A stretch of DNA of 20,252 nucleotides, taken from positions 1-20,252 of the forward strand of contig JALGZO010000151.1 in NCBI GenBank assembly GCA_025774865.1, written 5' to 3'. Positions within the stretch are counted from its first letter, which is position 1; every line of letters begins with the position of its first letter. Of the stretch, positions 11,264 through 16,312 are shown in pieces. Origin of the DNA: a bacterium. Its GTDB lineage: Bacteria; ARS69. The position numbers and the translations under genes are program-made. The notes below the pieces were generated by a model that had not been told where the DNA came from, searched no databases, and saw only the letters and a program-made list of their open reading frames with translations.

Positions 11264-12244
11264 CTAGTTCGCGCTCGCCTTCCGGATCGCCTCGAAGCGT
11301 TCGAGCTGCTCCTGGTAGTACTCGCTCTCCGGGGCATCCTCGATCGCCATCCGGATCAGCTCGACGGCGTCATCGCAGTTTCCGCGCGCGTTGCAGATCT
11401 CGGCCACCGTGTCGAGGATCATCGCCCGCTCCGTCCCGGCCGGAGCCAGCTCCACGCCACGGCGGCCCAGGGCCTCGCCCTCCTCCAGATTGACCATGCT
11501 CTCGAAGCACCACCACGAGAAGCCGTTCAGCTGCTTCGGGTCGTCTTTCCAGCCCTCGGGCATCGACGCGTACTTCAGCTTGACGGCCGTGGCCTCGTCC
11601 TTCTTCACGAAGAGCGTGTGATCGATCTTCAGCTGCGCGTGACGCTTCTGCATGCGCTCGTCATCACTATCGGCGGACGCAGTGAGCGCGGGCTCCAGAT
11701 ACGGAAGCCAGAGGTCCCGGTCTTCCACCTTCGACCCGACGTGCTTCATCCAGAACGCGACATCGACGATCTCGTCCGGGTCGCGACCCTCGTGCGCGAG
11801 CACGGCGTCGGCGGCCTTGCGGACCTCGTCGACCGTGAACGCTTCGGCCTTGCGGAAACCGGTGAACATCTCGTCGAAGATCTGGAACGAGTAGTCGACC
11901 GAGGGGTCGAGCTGCTCCCCCTTCGAATAGAGCTTCACCGCATCTGCATAGTTACCGCGGGCCCCCTGGTAACGGGCGAGCTTGCCCGCGTCGACCGCCG
12001 TCGGGGCGGAGGCGAACCGGGCCTCTTTCTGCTCGATCGTCGTGGGATCGGCGAGGGCGTCCCCGATGTTCGTGAGGAAGTGCGCTTTCTCGTATCCCAT
12101 CCAGGTATCCATGGTCTCGACTTCGGTGTTCGCGAGGATGTACGTGGGATACCCGTTGACCCGGTACTGCTCCTTGAGCTCCGGTCCCTCACCCTTCTCC
12201 GCGTCGACCTTGAACAGGACGACGTCCTCGAGAGCCTTCATCAC
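11264..12244 (-). CDS. Thioredoxin-fold/helical-repeat protein, C-terminal fragment (frame broken from its N-terminus)
   Basis: A 326-residue reading frame that begins in mid-domain. Its first residues (ALEDVVLFKVDAEKGEG, then ELKEQYRVNGYPTYILAN) are the second half of a thioredoxin fold with the cis-Pro segment (GYPT). The remaining ~250 residues look like TPR-type helical repeats (for example YQGARGNYADAVKLYSKGEQ; AEICNARGNCDDAVELIRMA). Upstream of the ATG the same frame reads SDPEVMKALEDV, which is typical of the segment just after the CXXC loop in secreted thioredoxin-like proteins. The matching N-terminus is in another frame at 12252-12401. The CXXC redox motif is absent from both pieces, so the protein is probably inactive as an oxidoreductase, or the sequence is misassembled here. 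Confidence 0.7.
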   Translation of the reverse strand: MMKALEDVVLFKVDAEKGEGPELKEQYRVNGYPTYILANTEVETMDTWMGYEKAHFLTNIGDALADPTTIEQKEARFASAPTAVDAGKLARYQGARGNYADAVKLYSKGEQLDPSVDYSFQIFDEMFTGFRKAEAFTVDEVRKAADAVLAHEGRDPDEIVDVAFWMKHVGSKVEDRDLWLPYLEPALTASADSDDERMQKRHAQLKIDHTLFVKKDEATAVKLKYASMPEGWKDDPKQLNGFSWWCFESMVNLEEGEALGRRGVELAPAGTERAMILDTVAEICNARGNCDDAVELIRMAIEDAPESEYYQEQLERFEAIRKASAN

Positions 12245-12251
12245 TTCTGGG

Positions 12252-12401
12252 TCAGAAGTCGACGAGGAGAGGCTTGTTCTCCTTCGCGGCCAAGGCCTTC
12301 GCCTCGGCGAACGTCTCGGGGGAAGCCGCCGCCGTCCCGGCCAGGAGCCCCAAGAGGGCCACGGCCGCGGAAGCAGCGAGGAAGGATCGAGAGATGCTCA
12401 T
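12252..12401 (-). pseudogene. N-terminal fragment of the thioredoxin-fold protein: Sec signal and first strand, ends at a premature TGA
   Basis: ATG 12401 has an AAAGGA SD. The 49 residues comprise a Sec signal peptide (SFLAASAAVALLGLLAGTAAAS) and the thioredoxin start FAEAKALAAKENKPLLVDF. In homologues this continues into an aromatic residue and WCxxC, but here a TGA follows immediately (12254-12252) and the downstream frame is different. Joining the two pieces would need restoration of the missing CXXC segment (probably a dozen or more codons) plus a frame correction. The mature protein would have been periplasmic. Confidence 0.65.
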
Positions 12402-12514
12402 ACCGGATTCCTTTCGGACGGATGGGAGTTGCACCGGGGAAGGACGGCCATGGTCGCTGATTACGAGTGGCGAGGGCCAGCAAAATCGGCCGGAACCGCC
12501 GCCTCCGCCTTACC

Positions 12515-13267
12515 CTACGGACTTCGGGAGCTGATAGGGACTCTCCTCCCCCGACACCCAGTACGCGTAGGCGTAGGCGTCGCCTCATTGCCCTCTTCGA
12601 CCTGGAGATACGCTCGCCGGGCGCCCCGCGCAACCCCCCAGGCGAGTAGCCCCTCCGCGAGGCGTGTCCCGTGACCGCGCCCCCGCCGCTCCGGATCCGT
12701 CACCAGATCGAAGAGTCCCACCCATTCCGCATCGCTGACGGCGAGTCCACCGGCCACCGGGCCTTCGTCGTCGTGGACGGTGGCGCATGCTCTCGGCCGG
12801 CGGATCGCGTCGAGGATCCACCGGAGCGCGTCCCGCCGCTCCGCGGCCAGATCCGTCCACGTGACGATCCGTTCGAACCAGGCGTCCTCGACCCGGTCGG
12901 TGAGCTCGAGCGCGGCAGCGGGCGCTCGGGCCGGCCGACCGGTGAGGTCCGCGGTCATGACTCGAGTCGGCGAGCGCAGCACGTAACGTTCGCCCTGGAG
13001 CACCGAGACGAGCTCGGACGGTTCGAGCAGCGGGGTTGCGCGGAACAGCGGCCGCAGGTGCCGAGCCCGAAAGAGCTCCTCGCACTCGCGGACTCTCTCC
13101 CGGAGGTCCCCGCTCACCGAGCCCATCGGATTCACGGAGTTGGCTCGGCCGGTGTGGCCGCCGGCGAAGCGGACGAGCCAGCCTCCGATCCGAATCTCCT
13201 CTCGTGCGGGCCAAGCGCGGAACGCCGCTCGTTCCAGTCGCCGGACGAGGGCGCGGTCCGCGGTCAC
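12515..13267 (-). CDS. GNAT-family N-acetyltransferase with disrupted C-terminus
   Basis: Starts at GTG 13267, overlapping the stop of the lipoprotein gene (GTGA). Residues 1-110 are the N-terminal GNAT-like half (IGGWLVRFAGGHTGRANSVNPMG, LRPLFRATPLLEP); residues ~130-235 are the catalytic half, with the acetyl-CoA loop DPERRGRGHGTRLAEGLLAWG and the strand RRAYLQVEEGNEA. After GNEA the frame turns into a meaningless Pro/Thr/Arg tail. One frame over, the sequence reads DAYAYAYWVSGEESPYQLP and stops at TAA 12510-12512, which is the expected end of such proteins. The intervening LYxxLGFR motif is missing. So a deletion with frame loss has removed the last core helix/strand. Substrate unknown. 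Confidence 0.75.
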   Translation of the reverse strand: MTADRALVRRLERAAFRAWPAREEIRIGGWLVRFAGGHTGRANSVNPMGSVSGDLRERVRECEELFRARHLRPLFRATPLLEPSELVSVLQGERYVLRSPTRVMTADLTGRPARAPAAALELTDRVEDAWFERIVTWTDLAAERRDALRWILDAIRRPRACATVHDDEGPVAGGLAVSDAEWVGLFDLVTDPERRGRGHGTRLAEGLLAWGVARGARRAYLQVEEGNEATPTPTRTGCRGRRVPISSRSP

Positions 13268-13791
13268 TTCCCGGGCAGCGGCGGGAAGTCGTGGAGGATC
13301 TTGCGGACGATGTCGAACATCTGGTCCTCGGAGTGCCGGACTTCCGCCCGGATTCCCTCCGCCCATCCGCGCCAGACCACTTCGTCCAGCTTTCGATCGA
13401 CGAAGTCGAGAACGAGGGTCCCCTCCTTGTAGCGCGCGTAGCTCGCACCCCCCGGGTAGTACCCGTAGCTGTAGACGTCGACGACGTCGCGCAGGTGCAG
13501 CCAGTAGACGACGATCAGGTCGCCCTGCCCCGCCTCGACGGGCCGGAGACCCTCCGGCTCGAGCTTGGCGGTCACCGCGCGCCTGATCCGTTTGTCGAGA
13601 AAGACGCGGTTGGAAACGGCGGGGGCGGTTTTCTCATCCTCGGGGCTCGCGGCGAACTCGAACGTCCGGTACGCCGCGAAGTCGACATCCCGGTCCCAGT
13701 CGGTGGCGACGTGAAGGGACGAGCACCCGGTGAAGAGGAACGAAAGAAGCAGCAGCAGAGGCAGGACCGCGGACGGTCGGGACGAGCTCAT
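13264..13791 (-). CDS. DUF4136-family outer-envelope lipoprotein
   Basis: A 175-residue lipoprotein. The signal ends in a clear lipobox LFTGC, with Cys23 as the lipidated residue. The mature part has the DUF4136 pattern: VATDWDRDVDFAAYRTFEFA near 28-47, then LDKRIRRAVTAKLEPEGLRPVEAGQGDLIVVYWL, a YSYGYYPG segment, EGTLVLDFVDRKLDEVVWRGWAEG near 122-145, and a final helix DQMFDIVRKILHDFPP. Function of this domain is unknown; many members are probably anchored in the outer membrane. GGGAGGA lies six bases before the ATG. It is coupled to the GNAT gene by a GTGA overlap and follows the VIT/VWA gene by 95 bases. Confidence 0.88.
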   Translation of the reverse strand: MSSSRPSAVLPLLLLLSFLFTGCSSLHVATDWDRDVDFAAYRTFEFAASPEDEKTAPAVSNRVFLDKRIRRAVTAKLEPEGLRPVEAGQGDLIVVYWLHLRDVVDVYSYGYYPGGASYARYKEGTLVLDFVDRKLDEVVWRGWAEGIRAEVRHSEDQMFDIVRKILHDFPPLPGK

Positions 13792-13818
13792 GAGGGTCCT
13801 CCCAGGGGTGGCGAGGGC

Positions 13819-13843
13819 GGCCGGGGGGCGGCGCCCCCCGGCC
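13819..13843. terminator. Strong GC hairpin between the VIT/VWA and lipoprotein genes
   Basis: GGCCGGGGGGC (13819-13829) pairs perfectly with GCCCCCCGGCC (13833-13843) around a 3-base loop. It lies 43 bases past the VIT/VWA stop and 28 bases before the lipoprotein ATG. No T-run follows on either strand, so it may be an attenuator or mRNA-stabilising hairpin rather than an intrinsic terminator. Confidence 0.5.
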
Positions 13844-13886
13844 AGTGTACCTCACCGTGCGGTCGCGAGGCGACGCGACGCAGAGG

Positions 13887-14996
13887 TCAGGCGACCACCC
13901 GGATCGTGAGGCGGTTCGAGTCCTTCGTCCCGAACGCTCCCCCCTCGAGCACGAGATGGACGGTTCCGGGGCGGCCGAGGAACGGGAAGTCCGCGGCCCG
14001 GAGCCGGACCTCCAACGTCACCCGATCGCCGGCCGAGAGCTTCTTCACTTCCGGCTTCTCGCCGCGGCCGAGCACGGTCTCGCTCCACTGGTGATCCAGG
14101 ACGCGGAGACGCAGGTGCTCCGCCGAGAGATCTCGCGGGACCTCGCAGACGCCGGTGCCCGTGTTCTCGAACGTGACTTTCAGAACGAGGTCGTCCCCCG
14201 CCCGCAGTTGCTTCGCGGTCGCGTCGATCCGGATCCGCACGGAGGCCGCGAACCCCGGCGCGGCATCGTCTTCCTTCTTCTCCTGCGGTCGAACGAGGAC
14301 GGGCGTGGTCGGCTCGCTCGCGACCGGGACGTCCACGAACCCGGCTTCGCCGGGAGACCTCTCGAAGGAGCTGACGTACCCGAGGGCCCGGAGCTGGTCG
14401 GTGGGAGCTGCCTTGGCCGTCGCGCGGTACTGCGACATCCGGCCCGCCGTCACCACGATCTCCTCCCCGTGGAGCTCACCGAACACGCCCTCGTAGCTCA
14501 CACCCTCCGGCATCTCGACCGGCACGCGAACCGTGCGCGGGTTCCCGTCGGAGACGACGAGTTTCTCCTCGACGGCGACGAAGGACGTGTACTTCGTGAC
14601 GAGCCGGTGGTCGAGCCCGAGCTGGGTGATCTCCTCCACGAGCGCTGCCTGCTCGCCGTGCACCATCGCCCGTTGGAGGTCGCTGATTCGCGCTCGCGCC
14701 CAGAGGCTGCCGATCGCCGGGTTCCCCGACTCGCGCGCCGGCAGCTCGAGCTCGATGCGATCGCGCCACTCGCGCCCCGCGATCTTGCCGCGGATCTCCA
14801 GTTTCCCCCGCGCCGCGTCGTCGTAGCGGGCGTGGATCGTCAGCGGCCGCCCCACGAACAGGTCCGGGACGCGCGCCGGATAGACGTCCGCCACCTCGAC
14901 GCCGTTCCAGACGAGCTCGATGTCCGTGAGGTACGGGCTCCGGATCCGGTCGTAGAACTTCGCGACCTCGCTCGAGACCTCGCTCCCCGGCAGAAA
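13887..14996 (-). CDS. VIT/VWA-type surface protein, C-terminal fragment (out of frame with its N-terminus)
   Basis: From about 14996 this frame reads FLPGSEVSSEVAKFYDRI and then VADVYPARVPDLFVGRPLTI, the segment that follows the VWA domain in bacterial VIT/VWA proteins. The first in-frame start is GTG 14894, so as it stands the fragment has no credible translation start or signal. It continues through LITKY-like LVTKYTSFVAVEEKLVV, then EEIVVTAGRMSQ and QLRALGYVSS. The last ~115 residues (VRIRIDATAKQLRAGDDLVLKVTFENTGTG...) look like an Ig-like beta-sandwich. Together with the fragment upstream this would make a protein of over 800 residues. Confidence 0.75.
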   Translation of the reverse strand, partial: FLPGSEVSSEVAKFYDRIRSPYLTDIELVWNGVEVADVYPARVPDLFVGRPLTIHARYDDAARGKLEIRGKIAGREWRDRIELELPARESGNPAIGSLWARARISDLQRAMVHGEQAALVEEITQLGLDHRLVTKYTSFVAVEEKLVVSDGNPRTVRVPVEMPEGVSYEGVFGELHGEEIVVTAGRMSQYRATAKAAPTDQLRALGYVSSFERSPGEAGFVDVPVASEPTTPVLVRPQEKKEDDAAPGFAASVRIRIDATAKQLRAGDDLVLKVTFENTGTGVCEVPRDLSAEHLRLRVLDHQWSETVLGRGEKPEVKKLSAGDRVTLEVRLRAADFPFLGRPGTVHLVLEGGAFGTKDSNRLTIRVVA

Positions 14997-16312
14997 GGGT
15001 TGTCGTTGCCGATGTAGCCGTCCGTCAGGAACATCACGATGCGAAGACGGTTCGCGTCGCGCGGCGTGTCGAGCGCCGCCTTGATTCCCTCGATCATCAT
15101 GGTGCCGCCGGAGCCCCTCAGCTGCTCCAGGTAGGCGATGCCGTCGCGCACGTTATCCGGCGTGCACGCGAGCGGCGTGGGCGAGAGCCCGGAGGCGTTC
15201 GTCGAGAAGCGAATGATCTGGAACGTGTCCGACGGGTTCATCTGTCGGAGCGCGTGCCGGGTGAGGCCCTTGGCCGCCGCCATCGGCTCGCCGGACATCG
15301 AGCCCGAGCAGTCCAGCACGAAGATCATCTCCTTCGGCGTGATCTTGGAAGCCGACGGCGCGATCTCCGGATGCAGCAGCACGGTGACATAGCCGTTGTC
15401 GCCGTCGTGGTTCGTGAGCACCGCGGTCTCCGGCGTCTCGCCGGCGACCCGCCAGCGCAGCACGAAATCCTTGTTCGGGATCGTGTCGAGATCGTTCAGG
15501 GTAATCGTCGCCCGCGCCTTACCGTTCCGGACGACGCGGACGGCGTGCGTCGCGCTCTTCAAATCCTCGAAGGGCACGCCGGATTCGAGATCGACGGTGA
15601 TTCCGATGTCATGACCCGAGCGAACGGTCGGCGGCAGGAACGGCGGATTGATCCGGTTCGCGTCCGGAACGCCCGGCGCCGGACGTAGCGTCGGCTCGCC
15701 CCCGGCCGGGACGACGTCCGCGGGGGCACCCGGCGGGATGAACCGCGGCCCGACGACCATCGGAAACGCGAGCTCGTACGACCCCTTTTCGTAGTCGAGC
15801 GTTTCGACGTAGACGAGCGTGATCTCGATCTCGTTGCCGGGAAGAATGTTCGCGACCGACTGGGTGAAGATGTTCGCGCGCTCTTGCTCGAGCAGCGCCG
15901 CGACCTTTCCTTGCGCCTTCGCGGTCTCGTAGATGCGGCGAGCCTCCGCGCGCCGGTCGATGACACCGCGAATCACGCGCTCACCGAGGCGCATCGTCAG
16001 GTCGTTCACCGCCGCCTCGTGCGGCAGCGGAAACACGTAGACCGCTTCGATGGTCTCTTCGTAGGGATTGGCGAACGTCTGCGTGACCTCGACCCGGGTG
16101 ACCGGTCCCGAGACCTCCGCGTGGACCTCCGTGTGCTTCAGGGGGAAGTCCTTCTGCACCGGCCGGCCGTCGACCACGACGTGGAGTCCACCGGTGCCGC
16201 AACCCGTCCATCCTTCGGGGACCGGAACGGGGGTGTTCGATCGACCGTTCGCGAGGCCCGAGGCGGCCCCGAGCACGACCGAGAGTGCCGTGAGCATGAG
16301 ATTCCGTTTCAT
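14840..16312 (-). CDS. VIT/VWA-type exported protein, N-terminal fragment ending in a frameshift
   Basis: ATG 16312 has a near-ideal GGAGG SD. Residues 1-22 are a Sec signal. Residues ~40-170 form a VIT domain (VTRVEVTQTFANPYEETIEAVYVFPLP; ILPGNEIEITLVYVE). Residues ~328-438 are a von Willebrand A domain: the MIDAS motif DCSGSMS begins at 334 and GGTMMIEGI and MFLTDGYIGNDN follow. The homologous frame ends at Asn438 (14999-15001); the rest to 14840 is an Arg/Ser-rich out-of-frame tail. The final VWA strands and helices (normally a few dozen residues) are missing before the C-terminal fragment resumes. Such proteins bind metal through the MIDAS and are thought to act in surface adhesion or envelope integrity. 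It is divergent from the ECF sigma gene. Confidence 0.82.
   Translation of the reverse strand: MKRNLMLTALSVVLGAASGLANGRSNTPVPVPEGWTGCGTGGLHVVVDGRPVQKDFPLKHTEVHAEVSGPVTRVEVTQTFANPYEETIEAVYVFPLPHEAAVNDLTMRLGERVIRGVIDRRAEARRIYETAKAQGKVAALLEQERANIFTQSVANILPGNEIEITLVYVETLDYEKGSYELAFPMVVGPRFIPPGAPADVVPAGGEPTLRPAPGVPDANRINPPFLPPTVRSGHDIGITVDLESGVPFEDLKSATHAVRVVRNGKARATITLNDLDTIPNKDFVLRWRVAGETPETAVLTNHDGDNGYVTVLLHPEIAPSASKITPKEMIFVLDCSGSMSGEPMAAAKGLTRHALRQMNPSDTFQIIRFSTNASGLSPTPLACTPDNVRDGIAYLEQLRGSGGTMMIEGIKAALDTPRDANRLRIVMFLTDGYIGNDNPFCRGARSRARSRSSTTGSGARTSRTSSSSGTASRWRTSIRRASRTCSWGGR

Follow-up and report, generated by a model that had tools for sequence, protein, structure and literature searches.

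Frame-breaking losses in three neighbouring genes of a fragmented metagenome-assembled genome are very probably assembly errors

Bacterial thioredoxin selenoproteins with a UxxC active site in a PF00085 domain have been described (PMC13188914). In the bSECIS model, a stem of 4-16 bp carrying a loop of 3-9 nt lies 16-37 nt from the UGA, with a G among the first two bases of the loop and an MFE of at most -7.5 (PMC13188914). Another described family is that of the VIT/VWA proteins of TIGR03788 (marine_srt_targ), for which the curated cut-off is 551.65. A different kind of precedent is provided by the indel and gap-closing errors of short-read metagenome assemblies. These are short losses or duplications free of Ns, which change the frame of conserved genes, leave scars at repeat boundaries and are commoner in fragmented assemblies. 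The genome described here carries marks of the same sort, differing in that three of them fall within 2.7 kb, denser than in the rest of the assembly. A search of the literature on this type of artefact gave nothing directly usable.

The DNA analysed, referred to here as the window, is the entire contig C154 (20,252 bp) of a fragmented metagenome-assembled genome (MAG), G000, which has 785 contigs and 4.72 Mb, and is 92.65% complete and 8.3% contaminated. It was compared with four sister genomes (G001-G004), the five together representing one family of the phylum with a separate genus each; G003 is a well-assembled, high-quality relative. For the syntenic locus, the sequences of G002 (L023), G004 (L024) and, in part, G001 (L025) were read. 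The features concerned are as follows.

11264-12253, minus strand: C-terminal piece of a thioredoxin-TPR protein, out of frame with its N-terminus, 54% identical to residues 69-400 of the G004 protein
12253-12254, minus strand: junction 1, in the thioredoxin-TPR gene; about 50 nt lost (tblastx offset against G004, G002 and G003) with the W-U/C-x-x-C active site and what is, in the sisters, a UGA codon and a SECIS-like hairpin
12254-12401, minus strand: N-terminal piece of the thioredoxin-TPR protein, from the signal peptide to PLLVDF, the ATG of MSISRSF being taken as the start
12581-12583, minus strand: junction 2, in the GNAT gene; about 34 nt lost with the ARRLYxxLGFx segment, against the G002 GNAT protein
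12584-13366, minus strand: GNAT acetyltransferase, portion before the break (PF24553, 2.3e-26; PF00583, 4.3e-9); this open frame runs upstream over the end of the lipoprotein gene, and the true start is uncertain
13264-13791, minus strand: DUF4136 lipoprotein, itself intact, flanked by the broken genes (PF13590, 5.3e-29)
13887-14996, minus strand: C-terminal piece of a VIT/VWA protein
14996-14999, minus strand: junction 3, in the VIT/VWA gene; 124 nt lost with the end of the VWA domain (QILAAVR...GRGEVHY in G002), offset against G002, G004 and G001
15000-16312, minus strand: N-terminal piece of the VIT/VWA protein (VIT, 3.2e-36; TIGR03788, 358.7 bits)

A sequence-only reading of the window had proposed that each of these three genes lost a conserved segment together with its frame, and had suggested comparison with a sister genome. 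All the missing segments were found at the same locus in the sisters, in frame apart from the UGA, and each break lies where it had been placed. The thioredoxin-like gene passes from ...PLLVDF directly to SDPEVMKAL..., and the VIT/VWA gene from ...FLTDGYIGNDN to FLPGSEVSSEVAKFYDRI. Similarly, the GNAT frame ends in ...YLQVEEGNEA and DAYAYAYWV... follows in another frame, where the G002 protein has YLQVMDDNVGARRLYSRLGFEDAYPYW; the figure of 34 nt is deduced from this single homologue. None of the three losses is divisible by three, in agreement with the proposal that each break combines a deletion with a frame change. The claimed loss of LGFR from the GNAT protein and of the VWA domain end was also borne out, as was the integrity of the lipoprotein gene. 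Programmed frameshifting was rejected because the cores of conserved domains are missing and not merely the frame.

The N-terminal VIT/VWA piece matches VIT and most of VWA in TIGR03788. Its score falls under the family cut-off because the protein is cut and the first piece alone was scanned. A scan of a genome collection returned mostly distant VIT/VWA genes, and the window's MAG itself holds a second, divergent one (G000:C617, L027). In G001, the VIT/VWA gene has a one-base frame break (L025:815-1016, G001:C26).

A decaying operon, one of the three causes offered by the sequence-only reading, is not supported. The pieces downstream of the breaks keep their full coding signal, and no secondary decay (extra stops, indels or relaxed selection) was found in the remnants. 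Against G004, pN/pS is 0.283/0.551 for the C-terminal thioredoxin piece, and 0.406/0.566 and 0.229/0.491 for the C-terminal and N-terminal VIT/VWA pieces. The intact lipoprotein gives 0.398/0.618 against the same genome, and aconitase 0.202/0.546 against G003. The broken pieces thus lie below 1, as do their intact neighbours, and purifying selection persists in them. Real but recent deletions would mean that the sampled population lost three gene functions through separate small events. Every junction is indeed a clean, well-defined loss, and three of them in one operon-like stretch would suit the loss of one shared function. However, the pieces show no further decay, the gene between them is intact, and breaks of the same type occur in the tuf gene of the same MAG and at the mraY-murD boundary of a sister MAG. 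Such deletions are therefore considered unlikely. It is quite improbable that three adjacent genes have just been lost together from this lineage, with the Sec codon and SECIS of a selenoprotein thioredoxin precisely excised.

The second cause on offer, a deletion-prone stretch, finds little support. The junctions, where microhomology had been suggested as a check, show only 0-3 nt of homology, and the homology of about 3 nt requires that serine was encoded at the site by TCT, a rare choice (4% of Ser codons). The conserved loop at which the breaks had been placed need not be special: in the sisters the deleted segments are not unusual hairpins, and a stability ranking of them there gave no outliers. 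The same ranking bears on hairpin-driven polymerase skipping during library preparation or amplification, a bench artefact in which the reads themselves would carry the deletions. The DNA is GC-rich, and a 40-nt window of the GNAT segment in G002 ranks at the 7.5th percentile for local stability, a 30-nt window of the VWA segment at the 3.7th. Nevertheless, these values are minima over several windows, and the deleted segments of the sisters mostly fall at the 10th to 40th percentile. Skipping would also leave unexplained a duplication in tuf that ends at a repeat boundary, and it is regarded as very improbable.

Coding sequence was examined with a frame scan trained on codon usage, over about 399 kb of the window's MAG, 331 kb of G002, 270 kb of G003 and 48 kb of G004; the breaks in the first two were mostly judged by eye. 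Apart from the VIT/VWA gene, two genes of the window's MAG were found to be broken internally.

L071:4464-4486 (G000:C625): O-antigen ligase-like gene, 14 nt and the frame lost
L064:16517-16550 (G000:C760): tuf, 17-nt tandem duplication, C-terminus of EF-Tu out of frame

In G002, breaks of the deletion type were seen in PBP1A-like, PMT/TPR-like, MacB-like and glycosyltransferase genes and at the mraY-murD boundary, where the end of mraY is fused to murD.

L026:8231, L079:2814, L088:19108, L231:371 and L232:13214: deletion-type breaks of G002

The scan gave no internal break in G003 or in G004. Its counts are lower bounds, since the thioredoxin and GNAT breaks escape it when it is used alone. 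A separate tblastx scan of the window's MAG, over about 131 kb of comparable coding bases, recovered the thioredoxin and VIT/VWA breaks of the window along with the 14-nt loss. A one-base call on C514 (L061:7869) probably reflects noise at a gene boundary and was disregarded. Frame chaos throughout the genome was ruled out, the majority of genes being intact.

The tuf scar lies in an essential gene family. Towards the end of the EF-Tu sequence, the gene on C760 carries two tandem copies of GGTGGTCGCACGGTGGG (17 nt), and the resulting open frame runs to 756 aa. The start of the same contig is the end of another tuf copy, with 114 nt identical up to the duplicated unit. Right after this unit the two near-identical ends cease to match (GGTGGG followed by T or C). 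The unit thus ends where the repeats part and is repeated once, which is the expected product of joining overlapping contigs end to end with the overlap left uncollapsed. In a sample of 305 kb of this MAG, tuf was the only out-of-frame tandem duplication within coding sequence. Contigs of the sister MAGs likewise terminate at tuf.

The three breaks are therefore very probably errors of metagenome assembly and not the marks of decaying genes, as the scars in tuf and the O-antigen ligase-like gene of the same MAG, the breaks in G002 and the unbroken sample of G003 together indicate. Clustered assembly collapse is accordingly the best supported of the causes first put forward. Short contigs would have been joined end to end over small unassembled gaps of about 34, 50 and 124 nt with no Ns inserted. 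A gap closed to nothing would shift the frame of each gene, and overlapping ends would instead leave a short duplication that disrupts the frame, which is what tuf shows; where overlaps are left uncollapsed, gaps could equally close to nothing and give losses of the window's type. Ns are absent from about 305 kb of sampled contigs of this MAG, bar two contigs that are wholly N (C200/L038 and C300/L039). Against this reading, a plain de Bruijn assembler needs reads that span the junction. A scaffolding or gap-closing step is assumed to be the source of the joins; we infer such a program step as well as low local coverage at the window.

The clustering is also a point against assembly error, as three events in 2.7 kb exceed the sampled rate of two others in about 380 kb by frame scan. 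Taking the sensitivity of that scan as about 3 in 5, a stretch of 20 kb should hold some 0.2 events. The MAG comprises roughly 230 windows of this size; three events would be unusual at one given place, yet not in the most extreme window among them. Finding three within 2.7 kb is rarer, which makes low coverage or another local cause likely, unless the window is simply a selected extreme.

The segment lost at junction 1 deserves separate attention. The sequence-only reading had described the thioredoxin-like gene as losing CXXC. The active site is indeed lost; in the three sisters that have the gene, however, its first cysteine is replaced by a single in-frame TGA, probably a selenocysteine codon.

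L024:8400-9610: thioredoxin-TPR gene with in-frame UGA, active site FYATW-TGA-GPCK (G004)
L023:1-1010, minus strand: thioredoxin-TPR gene with in-frame UGA, active site FFTTW-TGA-AACK (G002)
L093:16717-17088, minus strand: thioredoxin-TPR gene with in-frame UGA, active site FFADW-TGA-GPCK (G003)

These genes match the thioredoxin domain (5.5e-17), and tRNA-Sec and SelB score above their curated cut-offs in the window's MAG and in all four sisters. In each of the three, a hairpin with a 7-bp stem and the loop CG[T/G]GC lies 21 nt past the TGA, and one of its base pairs changes from U-A to G-C to A-U across the genomes. Its spacing, loop size and loop G fit the published bSECIS model (PMC13188914). 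The MFE values are -13.6, -11.8 and -7.5, no more stable than shuffled sequence; in G003 the MFE fold is a different structure, and the bases of the hairpin also encode the conserved FARA segment. For these reasons the hairpin by itself is weak evidence. Taken with the domain, the UGA and the Sec machinery, it makes the sister protein a probable selenoprotein of the UxxC type, resembling the described bacterial thioredoxin selenoproteins (PMC13188914). Unlike them, it is longer and probably exported, and has a C-terminal TPR-like part; the window copy differs further in lacking the UGA region itself. Where the motif would stand, a more distant paralogue of G002 reads S-Y-S-C.

From the sister UGA and hairpin, and from the Sec machinery in all five genomes, it follows that the roughly 50 nt missing from the window probably contained the Sec codon and the SECIS. 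A second, intact thioredoxin region was not found in the window's MAG, where the junction sequence occurs once.

Frame-breaking losses in a fragmented MAG can thus pass for pseudogenes or for the decay of an operon, and here the sister loci and the tuf scar point to assembly instead. In the organism, all three genes would then presumably be intact, the thioredoxin-TPR protein probably carrying selenocysteine in a U-x-x-C active site. A probable thioredoxin-TPR selenoprotein common to three genomes of the phylum, with five compared, is a useful by-product of the analysis, and one which gene callers would cut at the UGA even in intact sequence.
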